Positions 1,652 to 14,935 of a stretch of DNA of 23,737 bases are shown in pieces. The notes beneath the pieces are model-generated. The model saw only the letters and a list, made by a program, of their open reading frames with translations. It was not told where the DNA came from and searched no databases. The stretch comes from a virus: the IMG/VR virus record IMGVR_UViG_3300031603_000029, positions 1-23,737 of that record, one strand, 5' to 3'. The position numbers were made by a program, and so were the translations under genes. Within the stretch, counting starts at the first letter, position 1, and each line of letters starts with the position of its first letter.

Positions 1652-2902
1652 ATGAGTATAGAACGCGATGTGTTATCAGTGTTATCCCAGAGAGAGCGGT
1701 ACTTGCGGTACAGTACCCGAGTTCTGGGCAGAGGGGCAGCACTCACACGAGAAACCACACAAATAATAAAGGATCTACGGGAGTACTACAGTAAGTACGA
1801 GCAAGATACCGTATCATGGGGGGAGTTCTCTCAGTGGTTCTTGCTAGTACAGCACAGCATGTATAAGGACGAGGCAGTTGAGCTGTACCAGATGATCTTC
1901 ACCGCAATGGATAACCATGAACCATCTGCCCTTGAGGATGATATCATACGCTCTTTACTGGAGCAGTCAGTAGCAGAGGAGATAGCGGTTATCTCAGGTA
2001 AGATAGCTGAGGGCAATGATAGGCACGGATTAGAAGAAGTAAAGCAATTAATGGACTCATGGGTAGAGTCCCAGCTGGAGGAGGAGGACAATGAGGATGA
2101 CTGGGAGCTTCTGGACCTAGTGCAATGTACCTATGGTGAGGGTGGTTACAACTGGCGACTAAGTGAGCTTAATGTGTCCTGTGGGCCACTGCGGGATAGT
2201 AACCTGGTCCTCTTCGGTGCCCGTCCCAACATAGGTAAGACGTGTTTACTGATGTCTGAGGTCTCTTATATGGCAGGGCAGATAGCCGATGATCGCTGCG
2301 TATTGGCGATACACAACGAAGAAGGCCCCACTTCTGAGCTACGGTTACGGTGGTTGCAAAGCACGATAGGCTGGACACCTGCACAGATCAGTGATGACCT
2401 AGATGGGGCAATGAAAGAATACATCAGGATGCTGGGTACTAAGGATAGGATCATTGTTAGGCATATGCCAGGGGCTTCTGTACAGGAGATAGAGGCCCTG
2501 TGTGTTAAATACAATCCAGCTATCATTGTAGTAGACCAGCTCCGGTTGTGCGGTGGGTTCGGTAAGAACAACACAGAAGTTGAGCGTCTCAAGGATCTGT
2601 ACCGGTGGGCACGGATACAGGCTAGTACCTATGGTCCGTTCCTTACAGTACACCAAGCAGGAGATGCAGCAGAGGGTAGACTGTACCCTAGTGGTAACAT
2701 GCTAGAGGGATGCAAGACAGAGATACAAGGAGCGTTGGACCTACAAGTAATGATAGGATCAGACAGTGATGATAACAGGAGAGGTATTAACATAGTCAAG
2801 AATAAGCTAGCAGGATCTCTTGACAGTGACCCTGCAATGCGTCACCATAACTGGGACGTTACCATTAACCCACTCACCAGTAGATACGAGGGTACACTAT
2901 GA
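1652..2902 (+). CDS. DnaB-like replicative DNA helicase
   Basis: A 416-residue ATPase of the RecA/DnaB superfamily that would unwind the fork ahead of the phage polymerase. Walker A is GARPNIGKT at residues 189-197 (K196, T197), the form typical of DnaB-like phage helicases. HNEE at 221-224 probably supplies the catalytic glutamate. Walker B is IIVVDQ at 291-296 (D295), and the VHQAGD segment near 333 is where DnaB proteins carry a sensor/DNA-contact loop. Residues 1-150 form an acidic helical N-terminal domain. There is no zinc finger or TOPRIM primase domain, so unlike T7 gp4 this is a helicase only, and no primase lies in the window. It is followed by an ATGA overlap with a small ORF, then the polymerase. 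Confidence 0.85.
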   Translation: MSIERDVLSVLSQRERYLRYSTRVLGRGAALTRETTQIIKDLREYYSKYEQDTVSWGEFSQWFLLVQHSMYKDEAVELYQMIFTAMDNHEPSALEDDIIRSLLEQSVAEEIAVISGKIAEGNDRHGLEEVKQLMDSWVESQLEEEDNEDDWELLDLVQCTYGEGGYNWRLSELNVSCGPLRDSNLVLFGARPNIGKTCLLMSEVSYMAGQIADDRCVLAIHNEEGPTSELRLRWLQSTIGWTPAQISDDLDGAMKEYIRMLGTKDRIIVRHMPGASVQEIEALCVKYNPAIIVVDQLRLCGGFGKNNTEVERLKDLYRWARIQASTYGPFLTVHQAGDAAEGRLYPSGNMLEGCKTEIQGALDLQVMIGSDSDDNRRGINIVKNKLAGSLDSDPAMRHHNWDVTINPLTSRYEGTL

Positions 2903-3075
2903 AGTTACTACTAACAGAAGACCAAGAAGATGATGTGGTACTAGCAGCATTGAAGAAGTGCCTACAGCGTACCGGCATAGAGTTCGACTCAGTTCTTCTC
3001 CGGTCATTTAACCACGTTATTGCTTATTACTCAGTCCCCGATGAATGGGAGGACGGAGTGTATGACTCTCCCTAA
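2899..3075 (+). CDS. Small unknown protein between helicase and polymerase (58 aa)
   Basis: ATG 2899 lies in an ATGA overlap with the helicase stop; the frame ends at TAA 3073-3075, 14 bases inside the polymerase gene. The 58 residues begin MKLLLTEDQEDDVVLAALKK and are acidic and helical. Small ORFs of this type sit next to replication genes in many T7-like and marine phages, usually without a known role. No recognisable motif. Confidence 0.55.
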   Translation: MKLLLTEDQEDDVVLAALKKCLQRTGIEFDSVLLRSFNHVIAYYSVPDEWEDGVYDSP

Positions 3076-4276
3076 GCACATAACCTTTGACTTAGAGACC
3101 TCCGTGAACAACACAGGGGAGGATTCGATTGGTGGGTTTCCCGCCTCTCCGTACCATCCTAGTAACCGAATAGTTAGTGCTGGGTTCCTGTCTAACGGGG
3201 AGTACACTGGCCTGTACATGGATGAACTCAACGGGATGGGTTCCCCTACAGGGCTGTTGGTAGGACAGAACATTAAGTTCGACCTCCTGTACCTGTTACG
3301 GGAGTTACCTGGCTTCCGTATACATCTAGCAGAGTGCTGTACCATATGGGATACCCAACTAGCCGAGTATCTCTTATCTGGGCAAGAGCTTAGCATGAAG
3401 CGTTCCCCTAGGGAACTGTCTCTGGATGGGCTATCTGAGAAGTACAAGGGTACACAGAAAGTAGATGTTATTAAGGAGTACTGGGCTGCAGGGAAAAAGA
3501 CAGAGGAAATACCCAGGGAGGAACTACTAGAGTACATGGAGTACGATGTTCGTAATACTGAACTAGCGTTCTGTGAGCAGTACAAGAGGGCTGCTGAGCT
3601 AAACATGTTACCTCTTATTGAGTCCCAGATGGAGGCGTTACTAGCCACTACAGAGATGGAGTTCAATGGCATGTGCTTTGATAAGGCCCTAGCTAAGGAG
3701 TACATAATCCCACTACAAGCAGAGCTGAAACCTATCGCAGAGGGTATCCTAGCAGTACTGAAAGAGAGACTCCCTGAGTTCGGTCGTAAGGTTAATCCTT
3801 ACAGTGCTGGGTCAGGAGATCAGATATCCCTAGCTCTGTTCGGGGGGGAGTACAAGAGCAGGGAGAGCAGGGTTGTGCTGGAGGAGGGGAAGCCTGTGCT
3901 TGTACAGTCCGGCGTTACTATGGGGCAGGTCAGGACTAAGTTCTATAACACGATACTAACTGCTAAGCAATGGCTCCCCTCCCAGGAGAAGTGGGCACTA
4001 AAGAAGGCAGGGATGTACCAAGTAGATGATAAAGTGCTAAAGATACTAATCCACAAGGCAAAGAATGCTGGGTTACTTACATTCCTACAGAGCATACGGA
4101 GGTACAGGGATTTGAATAAGGAACTCAGTACATACCTTATAGGTTTCTCAGAGATAGCATGGCCTACTGAGAACGGCTGGTTCATACACGGGAAGTACAA
4201 CCATGCTATTACAGATACAGGCAGACTGAGTTCCTCGCAACCGAACCTCCAGAACGTCTCAGGTAAAGGAGAATGA
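3062..4276 (+). CDS. polA: DNA polymerase I-type, N-terminal part: 3'-5' exonuclease and thumb
   Basis: 404 residues corresponding to the proofreading exonuclease and thumb of a family A polymerase. Exo I is DLE at D10/E12, Exo II is NIKFD at N70-D74, and Exo III is YMEYD at Y158-D162, so the exonuclease looks active. The protein ends just after TDTGRLSSSQPNLQN (384-398), a conserved primer-template binding segment, and stops at TGA 4274-4276. The polymerase active-site motifs A, B and C are all in the next ORF, joined by ATGA. The start at ATG 3062 is preferred over an upstream TTG because GGAGG (3048-3052) sits nine bases before it and the exonuclease fold begins at once (MTLPKHITFDLE). Confidence 0.88.
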   Translation: MTLPKHITFDLETSVNNTGEDSIGGFPASPYHPSNRIVSAGFLSNGEYTGLYMDELNGMGSPTGLLVGQNIKFDLLYLLRELPGFRIHLAECCTIWDTQLAEYLLSGQELSMKRSPRELSLDGLSEKYKGTQKVDVIKEYWAAGKKTEEIPREELLEYMEYDVRNTELAFCEQYKRAAELNMLPLIESQMEALLATTEMEFNGMCFDKALAKEYIIPLQAELKPIAEGILAVLKERLPEFGRKVNPYSAGSGDQISLALFGGEYKSRESRVVLEEGKPVLVQSGVTMGQVRTKFYNTILTAKQWLPSQEKWALKKAGMYQVDDKVLKILIHKAKNAGLLTFLQSIRRYRDLNKELSTYLIGFSEIAWPTENGWFIHGKYNHAITDTGRLSSSQPNLQNVSGKGE

Positions 4277-5160
4277 GCAGGGTAAAGAGTTGCTTCATCT
4301 CACGATGGGGAGGGCAGGGTAGTATCGTTCAGGTTGACTTCTCCCAGCTGGAGGTAATCGGAGTTGCTTACCTGTCACAAGATCCCAATATGTACAAGGA
4401 TATCAAGGCAGGTATTGACTCTCACTCCCAGAGTGCTTCATGGCTAACAGACCACACCTACGAGGAGGTCCTAGAAGGACACAGGGCAGGGGATAAGTAC
4501 TTCAGCCAAGTACGAAAGGATGCAAAAGGCCCTAGGTTTGAATTACAATACGGGGCTGGTGCTGGGTCTATCGCTGAGAATAACGGTATCAGCAAGGCAG
4601 CAGCTCAGGGTTTTATTGATAACTACTACAGTAGATACCATGTACTACAGGCTTGGCAGGATGGGAACATACGCGCAGTAAAGGCAGCAGCAGAGGGTAG
4701 GTCAAAAGTAACTGTTGTAGATGGTAAGGAACACACAAGACGATGGACAGTAGGGAAACTCCCCAGCATTACAGGCAGGTGGTACACCTTCCGGCAGTTC
4801 GACACACCGGACTGGGTACAGGAGAGTACAGGCAGGAAGTATGACTTCTCACCTACTCAGATCAAGAACTTCCCTTCTCAGGGGTTCGCTACAGGAGATG
4901 TAGTCCCTATGATGCTAGGGCATTCGTACAGGAGGCTACTGCGGTCTTCTCGCTTCCGAGATAAAGCCTTGCACATAGGAACAATACATGATAGTATACT
5001 ATATGACGTACACGATTCAGTACTCGATTCATTCAAACCAGGGATTAAGAATCTTATGGAATTAGCACCAAGGTACATAAAAGAAACATGGGGGATAGAG
5101 TTCGACTTACCCCTCAAGGCAGAAGTTGAGAGTGGTAGATCATGGGATACACTAGCATGA
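4273..5160 (+). CDS. polA: DNA polymerase I-type, C-terminal part: palm and fingers
   Basis: 295 residues carrying all three polymerase motifs: A, VDFSQLE with catalytic D22; B, RKDAKGPRFELQYG with R81, K85, F89 and Y93; C, IHD with H239/D240. The position equivalent to E. coli Pol I residue 762 is phenylalanine (F89), not the tyrosine of T7 or the leucine of some marine phages. The sequence continues directly from the preceding ORF: joined, they read NLQNVSGKGE then SRVKSCFISRWGGQG then motif A, with no material missing. The frame is -1 relative to the first part. It may be a true two-subunit polymerase made by coupled reinitiation, a frameshifted gene, or a sequencing indel. Confidence 0.88.
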   Translation: MSRVKSCFISRWGGQGSIVQVDFSQLEVIGVAYLSQDPNMYKDIKAGIDSHSQSASWLTDHTYEEVLEGHRAGDKYFSQVRKDAKGPRFELQYGAGAGSIAENNGISKAAAQGFIDNYYSRYHVLQAWQDGNIRAVKAAAEGRSKVTVVDGKEHTRRWTVGKLPSITGRWYTFRQFDTPDWVQESTGRKYDFSPTQIKNFPSQGFATGDVVPMMLGHSYRRLLRSSRFRDKALHIGTIHDSILYDVHDSVLDSFKPGIKNLMELAPRYIKETWGIEFDLPLKAEVESGRSWDTLA

Positions 5161-8306: not shown

Positions 8307-8443
8307 GTGCTATATCAGATTTCTTACTATGGCTAGAGGAAGAGTACCCAGAGGTAATGCAGGATGCTGGTATTCCTCCGAAGTACTGCACTGAGTACCT
8401 AGACATGGTTGTAGCTAAGCGAGAAGCACAGGAGACCGAATGA
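8303..8443 (+). CDS. Small unknown protein before ribonucleotide reductase (46 aa)
   Basis: ATG 8303 to TGA 8441-8443 encodes 46 acidic residues beginning MSAISDFLLWLEEEYPEVMQ. Both ends are ATGA overlaps, with the phosphoesterase before and the reductase after, and AGGAGAG lies just upstream of the ATG. Together these make translation likely. No domain recognised. Confidence 0.55.
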   Translation: MSAISDFLLWLEEEYPEVMQDAGIPPKYCTEYLDMVVAKREAQETE

Positions 8444-10455
8444 GCATGGACCAGTACCAAACCTTTATAGCTACCTCACGATACGCCAGGTGGTTACCTG
8501 ACGCTGAGCGTAGAGAGACATGGGATGAAACCTGTACTCGATACATGGACTTCTGGCGTAACAGAGAGAACCAACCGAAGGGTATCAAGGAGACCATGTA
8601 CAAGGAACTAGAGGCAGCTATTAAGTGCCTTGATGTTATGCCTAGCATGCGCTGTATAATGACTGCAGGACCAGCCCTAGAGCGAGATAATGTTGCAGGC
8701 TTTAACTGCTCTTACTTACCGATTGACCACCCTAGAGCCTTTGATGAGCTTATGTATATCCTGTTGTGTGGTACAGGGGTAGGCTTCAGCGTAGAGCGCC
8801 AGTACCTAGCTAAGCTCCCAGAGGTAGCAGAGGCATTCTTTGACAGTGAGACTACTATCGTTGTACCTGACTCGAAGGTAGGTTGGGCTAAGTCCTTCCG
8901 GCAGTTGATCTACTTACTGTACGCAGGAGAGGTCCCTCAGTGGGACGTTAGTAAGGTCAGAGGACATGGGGTTCCTCTTAAGACATTCGGAGGTAGAGCG
9001 TCAGGACCACAGCCACTCATTGACTTATTCCTGTTCTCAATAGATACCTTCAAGGGTGCAGTAGGACGTAAACTTTCTTCTTTAGAGGCACATGACTTAT
9101 GTTGCAAGATAGCCGAGGTAATCGTAGTTGGAGGCGTTAGGCGTAGTGCTCTTATTTCTCTTTCTAACCCATCTGATGGTAGGCTTAGGGGTGCTAAGTC
9201 AGGCCAGTGGTGGTTGGATAACGGGCAGCGTGCTTTGGCTAACAATAGTGCTTGCTATACTGAACGTCCTGAGTTCGATTTCTTTTTAGATGAGATGCGG
9301 GCACTGTATGAGTCCAAGGCTGGTGAACGGGGTGTCTTCAGTAGGGCTGCTGCACAGCAGATTGCGGGTCGTAATGGCCGTAGAGACGCTGAGTACGAGT
9401 TCGGTACTAACCCCTGCTCAGAGATCATCCTACGACCTAATCAGTTCTGTAACCTCACAGAGGTGGTTGTACGAGCTACTGACACACTTGAGTCACTCAA
9501 GGCTAAGGTAGAGAAGGCTGCGATACTGGGCACTCTACAAGCAACACTTACTGACTTCAGGTATCTCCGGAAGATCTGGAGAACTAACACAGAGGAAGAG
9601 GCCTTGCTGGGTGTTTCACTCACAGGGATTATGGATCATCCGGTACTCAACGGAAGTGAGGAAGAGGAGATCTTTCAGTGCTATCTAAGTGATGATGTAT
9701 GGGCAGACAGTCTTGATGAGTATGAGTTCGTCCCTCCTACCGCTCAGTTATCATTCGATGAGTTCGACCCTGAGGATTCATGTAATACCCTAGATGATGT
9801 ACTTAAACAGCTAAAGGAGGTCGCAGTTGAGACTAATAAGAAGTGGGCGAAACGCCTTGGCATTAATCAGGCAGCGGCAGTTACCTGCGTTAAGCCTAGC
9901 GGTACAGTTAGTCAGCTGGTTAATAGTGCCAGTGGTATTCATCCTCGTTTCTCTAGCTACTATATTCGTACTGTTAGAGCAGACGTTAAAGACCCCCTGT
10001 CGGAATATATGGTTCAAGCTGGTTTTCCGCATGAAGCTGCTATTGGTCAGGATACAACTCTGGTGTTTTCTTTTCCGGTACAGTCACCCGAAGGTTCTAT
10101 ATGCGTTCAGGAAGTGGGAGCGATGGAGCAGTTACGTCTCTGGAAGATATACCAAGATCATTGGTGCGAACACAAACCCAGTATCACAGTCTACTACAAA
10201 GACGAAGAGTTCCTAGATGTATGCTCATGGATGTGGAAGAACTTCGATATAATGAGTGGAATAAGCCTCTTGCCTTTTAGTGACCATACCTACCAGCAGG
10301 CTCCGTACCAAGAGATAACAGAGGATGAGTTCGATGACTTAGTGGATGCTATGCCTGAGTTCAACTGGGAGGAGTTAGCAGCGTATGAGTCAACGGATAC
10401 CACTACCGGGTCACAAGAGCTAGCCTGTGTTGGGAGTTCCTGTGAGCTGCCCTGA
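8440..10455 (+). CDS. nrdJ: Class II (adenosylcobalamin-dependent) ribonucleotide reductase
   Basis: 671 residues resembling the monomeric class II reductase of Lactobacillus leichmannii, which reduces ribonucleotides to deoxyribonucleotides using a B12-generated thiyl radical. All functional cysteines can be placed: C90 (GFNC) and C337 (QFCNLTE) as the redox pair, C326 with E328 in NPCSEI as radical site and acid, and C663/C668 in the C-terminal CVGSSC shuttle pair. Spacings of 11 and 5 residues match the Lactobacillus enzyme (C408-C419, C731-C736). No separate small subunit or activase gene is present, as expected for class II. The phage must take adenosylcobalamin from its host. An acidic segment at about residues 405-450 looks loop-like. 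It starts in an ATGA overlap. Confidence 0.93.
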   Translation: MSMDQYQTFIATSRYARWLPDAERRETWDETCTRYMDFWRNRENQPKGIKETMYKELEAAIKCLDVMPSMRCIMTAGPALERDNVAGFNCSYLPIDHPRAFDELMYILLCGTGVGFSVERQYLAKLPEVAEAFFDSETTIVVPDSKVGWAKSFRQLIYLLYAGEVPQWDVSKVRGHGVPLKTFGGRASGPQPLIDLFLFSIDTFKGAVGRKLSSLEAHDLCCKIAEVIVVGGVRRSALISLSNPSDGRLRGAKSGQWWLDNGQRALANNSACYTERPEFDFFLDEMRALYESKAGERGVFSRAAAQQIAGRNGRRDAEYEFGTNPCSEIILRPNQFCNLTEVVVRATDTLESLKAKVEKAAILGTLQATLTDFRYLRKIWRTNTEEEALLGVSLTGIMDHPVLNGSEEEEIFQCYLSDDVWADSLDEYEFVPPTAQLSFDEFDPEDSCNTLDDVLKQLKEVAVETNKKWAKRLGINQAAAVTCVKPSGTVSQLVNSASGIHPRFSSYYIRTVRADVKDPLSEYMVQAGFPHEAAIGQDTTLVFSFPVQSPEGSICVQEVGAMEQLRLWKIYQDHWCEHKPSITVYYKDEEFLDVCSWMWKNFDIMSGISLLPFSDHTYQQAPYQEITEDEFDDLVDAMPEFNWEELAAYESTDTTTGSQELACVGSSCELP

Positions 10456-11128: not shown

Positions 11129-11475
11129 ATTACGTTTTGTGGACCATCACCTGATCCCATGTGGATGAAGTTACTACCTATTCCAATTCTAGTGAATCCT
11201 GTGTGGAGTGCTGCACTAATCATGGAGAATCTACTCGAAGAACTCAAGCAGCTTATGTCTGCTCCTTCTCCTGTGATATGCTCACTAGCAGGTACTCCTC
11301 CTACTAGCTTGTTGTACTCCTCGCACCTAGGTCCAGAAGTAACCGTGAATGGTACCCCAGCCTCTGCTCTAGCCCCTTGGAGCAAGAACAGTAACCGGGG
11401 AGAGGGGCGTATATCGCATTCCCCACAAGGGCAGGAGAACAGCATAGGGTCCCCCTTCTCTGTGAAGTACTTCAT
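11116..11475 (-). CDS. M15 family zinc peptidase, probable endolysin
   Basis: 119 residues of the peptidase M15 (D-Ala-D-Ala carboxypeptidase/L-Ala-D-Glu peptidase) type, which cleaves peptidoglycan peptides during lysis. SEHITGEGADI (64-74) supplies zinc ligands H66 and D73 in the SxHxxGxAxD pattern, and FIHMG supplies H105. VTSGPRCEEYN (45-55) is the conserved segment before it. A cysteine cluster (C15, C17, C20) near the N-terminus recurs in phage members of this family. It has no signal peptide or membrane anchor, so it needs a holin. It starts in an ATGA overlap with the 750-residue structural gene; M11 is an alternative start. Confidence 0.85.
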   Translation of the reverse strand: MKYFTEKGDPMLFSCPCGECDIRPSPRLLFLLQGARAEAGVPFTVTSGPRCEEYNKLVGGVPASEHITGEGADISCLSSSSRFSMISAALHTGFTRIGIGSNFIHMGSGDGPQNVIWLY

Positions 11476-13724
11476 TGGGCACCAACCTCCCTGCTGATAA
11501 CTCGCTTGATAGTGTCAGGGCCACTCTTCTGTAGCTGTCTTTGGATGGCTTCTTGGGCTGGTGTCTGTCCAGCAACGAGCCTCTGCGTGCCCTGCCTAGC
11601 GGCAAGGTTTGCTAGAGGGATACTAGCAGGTAAGCCTACTGGACCCAGCATCCCAGCACCACCAGCTAGGAAGTTAGCAAACAGTCTCTCGAAAGGAGTT
11701 ACATGCTCCTTCGGAGAGGCCGTCACTAGCGTGTCCCGCTGCTCTCGCAGCTTAGCTAGCTTCTGTGTGAGTTCCTCTATTTCAGAAGCCTTAGCAAGGA
11801 TTCTCCTCTTCTTAGCAGCCTCTGCTATGTTCTTCCTACCAATTTCCGCTATCTCTGCCCGTAGCCGGTTTACCTCATTGGTTAGATCTTTCGCCTGGCT
11901 CGCTTGCCGCACTTCCTGTGCCTTCACATTGGCCTTACTCGCCTGTTCTGCTGCCTGAGTAAGCACTTCATCTCGGCGTGCTACTACATCAGCAATGTCA
12001 TCAGCTTGGGCTTGGGCAGGTCCAGTCCCTTGCCTTGCTCGTCTTGGGGATTCCTTTACTACATTAACCAACCAGTCACTCGCAGTGAACTCCCCTCTCT
12101 GTCCTGCCTTAGCAGAGGCGGAAGCTACCGTAGGGCGTAACACTCTGTTATGTGCCCAAGCATTCCGCTCCGCCGTAAATACCGCCTGCTGATCTGGTGA
12201 CAACTGCCTCATAATCATATCATCAACCGAGTCCTGTATGGCACCAACGACCCCTCCTAATGCTGCTGACTTGCCCCCAGAATCTGATAAGGAGTTAGCA
12301 ACTATTCCTATCTGGGATCGCATCTGTGTGAGTGCCTCCCCACTAATCCACCCACCCTCTGTGGAGTGCTTCTGCATGTACTGCTCTACAAAGGTGGCGA
12401 CAGCGTTAGGCTGACCACTGGTTAGTACAGTAGCTGAGGCCAACACATCCTCATCAAATATTCTATCTATGTCTGCAAGCACTCTACTCTGGCTTATTCT
12501 GAACTTCTTTCCTTTAGTAACCGCAAAGCCCTTCTCTGTCCATAGGTTGTCTGAAGCCAGCATAGCTCTCTGAGGACTCATACTAGCTACTTCCGCAATC
12601 TCTTTCTCGCTTGCTCCCCTAGGAAGGGAGTCCCTGTAGACATTCTGCCTAAAGAATGCCTCAGCCGCATTGGTTTCCACATCCATTTGCTTTATCTTTT
12701 CGGGAAGTATATTGCTCTTATCCTCTTTTAGTCCCAGCTTGGTACTACCTCCCGCTAGTTTGATGTTATCTGCAACGTTGGCTGACGCACTCTTAGCAGA
12801 CTCTACAGACTCTAGTGTACGTCTTTTTACAACAACCTCCATCTCCTTCACAGAGGTCTTGGCGTTTGCTGTGAGCTGCTTTAGATGGGTGTCAGCCCTG
12901 TCTACCGCTTCCACTACTGGGCGAGACCATCGCTTTGACTGCTGCTCTATAAGGCCCCTACTCCCGAATGCCTTACCGAGTACCTCTCTGTAGAACCATG
13001 GCAGTATATCACCCGTGGTCTTACCTGTCTCGCCTGTTACAGGAGCTTCTGCTAAATTAATCGGAATAAAGTCATCGCCATGCCCTAGGTCTTGTGCAAC
13101 CCGTCTTTTAGATGCAACATTGGCTACCAGTCTCCCAGCCTGCTCAGCGCTACTCAATACTCCGAATGTACCAGCACTCAGAGCCGCACCTTTAGCCATG
13201 CCCTCAGTTTTGTTACCTGCTGGTGCTGCACCTGCACCATACAGACCACCTTCAGCTATAGCTACGCTCGCACCTATCCCAACCTTGTCTCCAACAGAGA
13301 CCCCTCTGAGTCCCGCTAGCCCCCTAGCGCCCAAGACATTAACAGGGGAGAACAGACCTCCGCCTATCTCAAGCAAAGTGCTGGCTACAGGATGGTCTTC
13401 CGAGTACTGATCTCTCTCCAACTGTAGGCCACCCATCATCTCACTGTATATCTCAGAGTATGGGCGCTCTTCTCCTGCTATCTTTGCAACACCAGCAGCA
13501 ATCCCAGCACCCGCTTCATCGGACCACCCGAACATAAGCCCATCTAGTGCTGCTCTGGATGCCATAACAGGGTCTTCGTACCAGCCCTCATTAGCGGTTG
13601 GGTCCTCATTAAGCACACTTAACTCACCACGGTCTGTTATCTCCTCGTAACCAGCGAACTCATCTGTACTTAATGAGGCTAACTCTTCAGGATCAGTGAT
13701 TTCTACCAGATCATAGTCTTCCAT
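11472..13724 (-). CDS. Internal virion / DNA ejection protein candidate (750 aa)
   Basis: An Ala/Gly-rich 750-residue protein. The N-terminus is acidic. The phrases GLMFGWSDEAGAGIAAG, DHPVASTLLEIGGGL and GGLYGAGAAP are typical of a family of large phage structural proteins believed to be carried inside the capsid and ejected. Residues 581-668 form a long charged coiled coil; residues 686-710 (GAGMLGPVGLPASIPLANLA) are hydrophobic and could insert in a membrane. No lysozyme or transglycosylase motif was seen. It is the last of four consecutive structural genes before the endolysin and starts in a TAATG overlap with the 403-residue gene. The exact position in the virion is inferred. Confidence 0.6.
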   Translation of the reverse strand: MEDYDLVEITDPEELASLSTDEFAGYEEITDRGELSVLNEDPTANEGWYEDPVMASRAALDGLMFGWSDEAGAGIAAGVAKIAGEERPYSEIYSEMMGGLQLERDQYSEDHPVASTLLEIGGGLFSPVNVLGARGLAGLRGVSVGDKVGIGASVAIAEGGLYGAGAAPAGNKTEGMAKGAALSAGTFGVLSSAEQAGRLVANVASKRRVAQDLGHGDDFIPINLAEAPVTGETGKTTGDILPWFYREVLGKAFGSRGLIEQQSKRWSRPVVEAVDRADTHLKQLTANAKTSVKEMEVVVKRRTLESVESAKSASANVADNIKLAGGSTKLGLKEDKSNILPEKIKQMDVETNAAEAFFRQNVYRDSLPRGASEKEIAEVASMSPQRAMLASDNLWTEKGFAVTKGKKFRISQSRVLADIDRIFDEDVLASATVLTSGQPNAVATFVEQYMQKHSTEGGWISGEALTQMRSQIGIVANSLSDSGGKSAALGGVVGAIQDSVDDMIMRQLSPDQQAVFTAERNAWAHNRVLRPTVASASAKAGQRGEFTASDWLVNVVKESPRRARQGTGPAQAQADDIADVVARRDEVLTQAAEQASKANVKAQEVRQASQAKDLTNEVNRLRAEIAEIGRKNIAEAAKKRRILAKASEIEELTQKLAKLREQRDTLVTASPKEHVTPFERLFANFLAGGAGMLGPVGLPASIPLANLAARQGTQRLVAGQTPAQEAIQRQLQKSGPDTIKRVISREVGAQ

Positions 13725-14935
13725 TACTCAGTCCCTACTGGATTCTTTGGTATCTTTCTGTACCATTTTCCATTAGCTCCTTGCACTCGATCAGGTTCAC
13801 CTTCTCGTGAAACTGTTCGTTGAACTACCATAGGTGCCCCTCCTTTGGCACTCTGTCCTGCTAGGCCACCTGACCCCTCGTCTGTGGGGAAGTAGTCCGT
13901 AGCCGGCCTACCTTGGGCCTCAGCTAACTCCATCTCTTTCATCTGCAGATCCCATCTGCCCATCAACGCTCTGTAGGAAGCCTCTGCTTCTGCTGGTGCC
14001 AGCTCCTTGTTAAACACAGCGATTCTGAGTGCTTGTATCTCTGCAAGAGCTGCTGCCGCGCCTGTAACTTCAAACTTGTAATCAAGGAATACCTGCTCTG
14101 TCTGCTCAAAGACTACCCGCTGGTTTGCATTGAACTCCACCAAGTCTGTTCCGGAAAGCCCCTCTATTAATGTGTTAAGAGAGTCTCCACCTAGTCCTGT
14201 CATAGAGTCGAGTGCCTTGCCTATCTTTCCTTTTATTCTTCCCAGTGTTCCGAAGTTCGCTTTAAAGTCTTTCTCCTCTAGCCCTTTCGCACCTGCCAAC
14301 CTCTTACGCATCTTAATGATAGCCGTGAGGTTTGCTGCACGGACGGTCTTTGGCGTGAAGTCGGATGGAGTACCTGATAGGTTCGTACCTGGCTTCTTAC
14401 TGTAGCCCTCCATATCCTCAGCGGATAGCTCTTTACCATCCGGTGTATAGAAGCGACTCCCTACTTGGATAGCCTTTACTGAGGGGGCCTGAGGGTTCCC
14501 TATATCTTCATTCCGCACAAGCTCAATCATCGTTTTAGCTGTTGGGGGTGCTACTGGCTTAGGTATCATACCAACTATGTCCTTAGCTCGACCGAATTCA
14601 TCCTTAGCCCCACCTACTACCCCTTCCTGAGCAGCTATCTGACCACTCCTCCTGGTCTCCTTGATGGTATCCATTAGGGATAATCCCTTAGATACGGAGT
14701 CAGCGAACCCAGCTGCAGGACCCTTACTTGGATCTGATCCCATCATACGCATAGCTATATCCTTCATAGCTGCTGCCTGACTCTGATCCGGGTTCATAAA
14801 GGCTTCTATGCCTGTCTGACCTGGATTACGGAACCCTGTCTGTGCTGGTTGTGCTGTCATTGTGTTCAGCTTGCCCTGTTGTGCAGTGGCATTAGCAGAG
14901 ATATTCTGCAGCATTTGTAGTGGTGTAATCGCCAT
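13724..14935 (-). CDS. Structural protein, internal virion candidate (403 aa)
   Basis: 403 residues beginning MAITPLQMLQNISANATAQQ, with a Gln/Ala/Met-rich, probably flexible N-terminal third. A helical central part at about 205-345 contains KMRKRLAGAKG and FEQTEQVFLDYKFEVTGAAAA. The tail is short and polar, with KWYRKIPKNP near the end. No catalytic motif. It is joined by one-base overlaps (TAATG) to the 1101-residue gene before it and the 750-residue gene after it, so the three proteins are probably made together and may assemble together, as do the internal proteins of T7 and N4-type phages. Confidence 0.55.
   Translation of the reverse strand: MAITPLQMLQNISANATAQQGKLNTMTAQPAQTGFRNPGQTGIEAFMNPDQSQAAAMKDIAMRMMGSDPSKGPAAGFADSVSKGLSLMDTIKETRRSGQIAAQEGVVGGAKDEFGRAKDIVGMIPKPVAPPTAKTMIELVRNEDIGNPQAPSVKAIQVGSRFYTPDGKELSAEDMEGYSKKPGTNLSGTPSDFTPKTVRAANLTAIIKMRKRLAGAKGLEEKDFKANFGTLGRIKGKIGKALDSMTGLGGDSLNTLIEGLSGTDLVEFNANQRVVFEQTEQVFLDYKFEVTGAAAALAEIQALRIAVFNKELAPAEAEASYRALMGRWDLQMKEMELAEAQGRPATDYFPTDEGSGGLAGQSAKGGAPMVVQRTVSREGEPDRVQGANGKWYRKIPKNPVGTE

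Follow-up and report, generated by a model that had tools for sequence, protein, structure and literature searches.

The replicative family A DNA polymerase encoded in the window (the whole stretch of DNA analysed, 23,737 nucleotides, a 23.7 kb virus record consisting of a single virus contig) is divided between two overlapping open reading frames and, judged from its sequence, is very likely to be an obligate two-chain enzyme, for which coupled translation, assembly and activity are proposed. An N-chain of ∼45 kDa would carry the exonuclease, the thumb and the first palm strands, and a C-chain of ∼33 kDa the remaining palm, the fingers and the catalytic aspartates. Both chains would be translated from one mRNA, the C-chain by termination-reinitiation at an ATGA overlap, and would assemble into a heterodimer by together completing one palm. 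The two ORFs and their join comprise the following features.

3062..4276, plus strand: N-half of the split family A DNA polymerase (3'-5' exonuclease, thumb and first palm strands), 404 aa, with the tail TGRLSSSQPNLQN-VSGKGE; assigned with Pfam, PHROG and AF2.
4273..5160, plus strand: C-half (remaining palm and fingers, with motifs A, B and C), 295 aa; assigned with Pfam, PHROG and AF2.
4273..4276, plus strand: ATGA join, in which the stop codon of the N-half overlaps the start codon of the C-half; direct reading.
4265..4271, plus strand: AAAGGAG, read as K-G-E in the tail of the N-half and doubling as a Shine-Dalgarno-like core ahead of the C-half start; direct reading.
4264..4266, plus strand: in-frame TAA, the upstream closure of the C-half frame, which confines any -1 shift to 4267-4276; direct reading.

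The N-half terminates at the TGA at 4274-4276, six residues (VSGKGE) past TDTGRLSSSQPNLQN. The C-half starts at the ATG at 4273 (MSRVKSCFISRW), continues through motif A (VDFSQLE) to its end at 5160, in a frame that is -1 relative to that of the N-half. Direct reading thus confirmed the initial annotation, which had placed the split between TGRLSS and motif A with an ATGA overlap and a -1 frame for the C-half. The best start of the N-half was the ATG at 3062, versus a TTG at 3020 in the mechanical ORF list. Overlaps of 4 bases, previously ascribed to most joins in this arm, were counted at roughly half of them (about 8). The helicase gene and the polymerase N-half have a 58-aa ORF (2899-3075) between them, which overlaps the former by 4 nt at its stop and the latter by 14 nt at its start. 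A ribonucleotide reductase gene (8440-10455; phrog_367, Pfam B12-dependent insertion domain) is located downstream in the polymerase arm. The right arm carries two large ORFs of 750 and 403 aa on the minus strand (11472-14935), for which Pfam gave no match and PHROG nothing better than a weak one.

At the break point the sequence of intact relatives is NL-PRKGT-SKVK or NI-PKGNK-SAVK, in general form N(L/I)-P(R/K)...-S-x-V-K, and that of the window is NV-SGKGE/(M)SRVK. The polymerase of the window therefore has no residues missing at the break, as had been claimed. The Pfam DNA_pol_A profile (PF00476) was shared out nearly without a gap, positions 40-133 in the N-half and 140-380 in the C-half, with matches over its cut-off in both. 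The 3'-5' exonuclease domain (Pfam DNA_pol_A_exo1) was located in the N-half, and PHROG matches were to 9556 and 17 for the N-half and to 2573 for the C-half. The exonuclease residues D10/E12, D74 and Y158/D162 (Exo I-III) were invariant in a 21-row alignment of N-halves, and the polymerase residues D22, R81/K85/Y93 and H239/D240 (motifs A, B and C) in a 21-row alignment of C-halves, so that the full set of exonuclease and polymerase motif residues noted at the outset is indeed present.

The AF2 model of the C-half (pLDDT 94.5) aligned to Klenow residues 684-928, Bst 632-876 and Taq 589-831, with Z 23.9 against Bst Pol I over 241 aligned residues (rmsd 2.5). The N-half model (pLDDT 85) aligned to Bst Pol I residues 314-631 with Z 17.9 over 308 aligned residues (rmsd 3.8). 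The break therefore corresponds to Bst 631/632, and the two predicted models together make up the right-hand polymerase fold. The C-half was confidently predicted on its own. When the N-half was modelled alone, residues 381-388 and 400-402, around TGRLSS and in the tail, had pLDDT values below 50; a palm stretch predicted with such low confidence is compatible with docking on the C-half, of which it is no proof.

The same break, to within a few residues, was found in Zobellviridae isolates, the Vibrio phages ICP2, ICP2_2013_A_Haiti, VP41s3 and MJW. Like the window, these have a family A polymerase with identical break residues and a C-half starting MS-x-[IV]-K, in the gene order helicase, polymerase N, polymerase C, exonuclease. 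The window also shares the defining arrangement of this Icepovirus type, in which the break falls after NLQN and before the S-x-[IV]-K that opens the C-half and each part has a separate start and stop; identity is about 40-53% per half. It differs in its 4-nt overlap without an insert, whereas the halves are separated by different HNH endonuclease genes in ICP2 and MJW, by a small ORF of 86 aa in VP41s3 and by a gap of only 9 nt in ICP2_2013_A_Haiti.

IMG/VR scans and six-frame HMM sorting yielded 83 distinct loci in which separate ORFs encode the halves. After removal of three doubtful loci and of the incomplete ones, 74 full-length pairs were retained, 43 with the break of the window (site A) and 31 with a break of the type seen in the OM43 phage MEP401 (site B). 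Loci left out of the counts were L027, a frameshifted intact gene, and L294 and L302, with breaks at SSNP/SSDP that are perhaps introns or damage; L359 was counted under site B, not site A. A back-translated pattern search using the N-half of the window alone gave no matches, and a scan of genome contigs gave one relative, in a Sinomicrobium MAG (L245), with an intact polymerase. The split is thus conserved in related phage genomes, in isolates as well as in the 43 full-length site-A pairs, and because the same break recurs across the whole clade it is more than a chance event. A one-base sequencing or assembly error that split an intact gene had been offered as one explanation, and the record comprises just one virus contig; relatives within the clade, sequenced isolates among them, are however split here too, with a C-half that has its own ATG, and two of them (L265, L367) carry the identical ATGA join. 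With the break shared by cultured isolates and independent assemblies, such an error is effectively refuted.

Insert-free site-A joins measured -4 nt (the window, L265 and L367), -1 (L160), +1 (L093/L094 and L151), +3 (L090/L091) and +9 (L003), and the frame relation across those of the relatives was 0, +1 or -1. Most other site-A loci have 100-1700 nt separating the halves. The insert-free joins were scattered in separate subclades, with at least 7 changes between the tight and insert states among 36 site-A rows. Programmed -1 frameshifting, also raised initially, would join both frames of the window into one polymerase of ∼78 kDa. The C-half frame is open from 4267, and the earlier reading that the TAA at 4264-4266 restricts a -1 shift to 4267-4276 was correct; a shift within these 10 nt would yield the fused protein. 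Direct reading of this stretch nevertheless revealed no X XXY YYZ slippery heptamer, no stimulatory RNA structure was predicted (fold z -0.05), and the variable frames of the relatives, together with the 100-1700 nt between the halves in many of them, speak against a frameshift. Frameshifting was accordingly judged highly improbable.

The inserts between the halves included HNH genes (L002, L005), a 2OG-Fe(II) oxygenase (L092) and a nucleotidyltransferase-like gene (L109); many others were small ORFs without a family. The initial statement that no intron or homing endonuclease occupies the site therefore holds for the window and fails for its relatives, in which HNH genes and other cargo lie exactly there. 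Just past the N-half stop of ICP2 and MJW (L002:4514-4560 and L005:3443-3490), ∼35 bp were nearly identical despite the different HNH genes; this gap appears from the sequence to be one in which cargo is exchanged between fixed flanks. In a site-B phage, three tandem tRNA genes (L364:3797-4026) lie downstream of the split polymerase, and tRNA genes near the polymerase were also present in L098, L160, L265, L281 and L377. An odd Rfam tmRNA match (RF00023) at L096:5475-5553 spans just 79 nt yet covers the full model range.

Removal of a self-splicing intron or intein at the break has been suggested for MEP401 in the available passages of PMC10580990, and for ICP2 a joined CDS is annotated around the HNH gene (NC_015158). 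In the window, however, zero bases separate the halves, and in the relatives both halves come with a stop and a start of their own and the inserts hold ordinary ORFs. An intein would be an insert between parts in one frame; the window has no insert, and its parts are in different frames. Rfam searches at the gathering threshold returned no intron at the break in 55 sources, nearly all of them split loci. The same searches matched the group I intron model RF00028 at L107:4256-4517, at motif B of the C-half of a locus that is also split at site A, and are therefore able to detect introns in the polymerase gene. A divergent, sub-threshold intron could lie inside some relatives' inserts. In four further loci (L328, L366, L368 and L369) the C-halves or palm parts were broken near motif B by a similar intervening sequence under the Rfam threshold; these interruptions are perhaps divergent introns. 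Splicing at the break itself was given only a very slight probability, and two separately translated chains are the preferred reading.

Of 76 split loci, 53 had a Shine-Dalgarno core 17 to 5 nt ahead of the start codon of the C-half, against a background in those loci of 18% of all ATGs and 12% of in-frame internal ATGs. The AAAGGAG core of the window is separated from the ATG by 1 nt only, a poor spacing, and for this reason termination-reinitiation at the ATGA is the favoured route by which the C-half would be translated. No promoter- or terminator-like site was identified between the halves of the window. The closest relatives of the window were only 45-47% identical, and selection was consequently measured on relatives alone: in 13 relative pairs, with dS saturated in some, N-halves gave dN/dS values of 0.03-0.31 and C-halves values of 0.05-0.18, wherever the ratio was defined. 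In the relatives, each half is evolving under purifying selection. Were the halves never to assemble, one would be a relic and the phage would rely on another polymerase or on one part. The record may be an incomplete genome, but every catalytic residue is kept, the replication-gene neighbours are retained and selection acts on both halves in the relatives; a relic was considered very unlikely. The two-chain option listed in the initial annotation is strongly supported, by conservation of the break in the clade and by selection on both halves in relatives.

Split DNA polymerases have been reported in the OM43 phages MEP401 and MEP402, in passages of PMC10580990 that suggest an intron. Like that of the window these are family A enzymes in two ORFs, the exonuclease and first palm part in one and the remainder in the other. 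The MEP401-type break lies ∼12 residues further downstream, immediately before motif A (IKTLFLSRYGE / MILNADAKALEW), in a separate clade with a small ORF between the halves; the window is not broken after SRYGE. The available passages of PMC10580990 are silent on any difference between the MEP401 and ICP2 breaks. In the T4-like Aeromonas phages 25 and 44RR the family B polymerase is split as gp43A/43B, and 43A and 43B of phage 25 co-purify with polymerase activity (PMC2988022). This is likewise a replicative phage polymerase in two polypeptides, but of family B, of separate origin and linked to a seg endonuclease or intercistronic sequence, whereas Pfam places the window in family A. The NrdA ribonucleotide reductase of phage Aeh1 is in two polypeptides and still functional (PMC2988022); it is a different enzyme, split by mobE insertion, while the split of the window type persists without an endonuclease. 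Split phage polymerases are already known (MEP401; T4-like family B), and that of the window is a new variant. In a literature search of incomplete coverage, no paper describing the site-A family or its insert-free joins was found.

In the trees the window was grouped with ICP2, VP41s3 and a few contigs, in a starred set of 7 or 9 rows; the set was not starred in a reduced LG+G4 tree. Site-B rows formed a single clade with support 100, and site-A rows were not always one clade in free tree searches. Holding the site-A rows as one clade gave a likelihood 6.4 higher than the free search and a p-AU of 0.575 (AU test on 35 rows, LG+G4), and a single site-A origin was therefore not rejected. The simplest reading is two fissions, one for each site; on the free trees the labels have to change three times. 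One group of fused polymerases nested among the site-A rows in two free trees with weak support, which makes re-fusion or two origins possible. Among the relatives examined no clear case of re-fusion was found. Insertion of an HNH gene as the cause of the split was unsupported: HNH-free relatives are scattered through the clade, which suggests that the HNH genes came in later, and the first event is not visible. Fission at site A probably occurred once, in the ancestor of the Icepovirus-type polymerases, and the junction would afterwards have been filled and emptied with cargo genes repeatedly.

The distance to fusion is one stop codon for ICP2_2013_A_Haiti and for L090/L091, and one indel for the window. 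In several lineages re-fusion would take only one or two mutations, and the finding of no clear case led to a further, tentative proposal, considered rather unlikely as a whole: the segment from NLQN to motif A may tolerate fission and have been cut on at least two independent occasions, with the two-chain state kept because it brings an advantage, such as separate dosing of the proofreading and polymerising parts or a site at which proteins encoded between the halves could dock.

The two-chain reading would explain the joined or intron-containing annotations of these polymerases and the view taken in one past paper. The break point is also a place where mobile and accessory genes settle. A polymerase cut through the palm, stable in its clade and probably arisen twice within ∼12 residues, would be a natural experiment on the division of an active single-chain enzyme, and the split phages may be a source of ready-made two-part family A polymerases.
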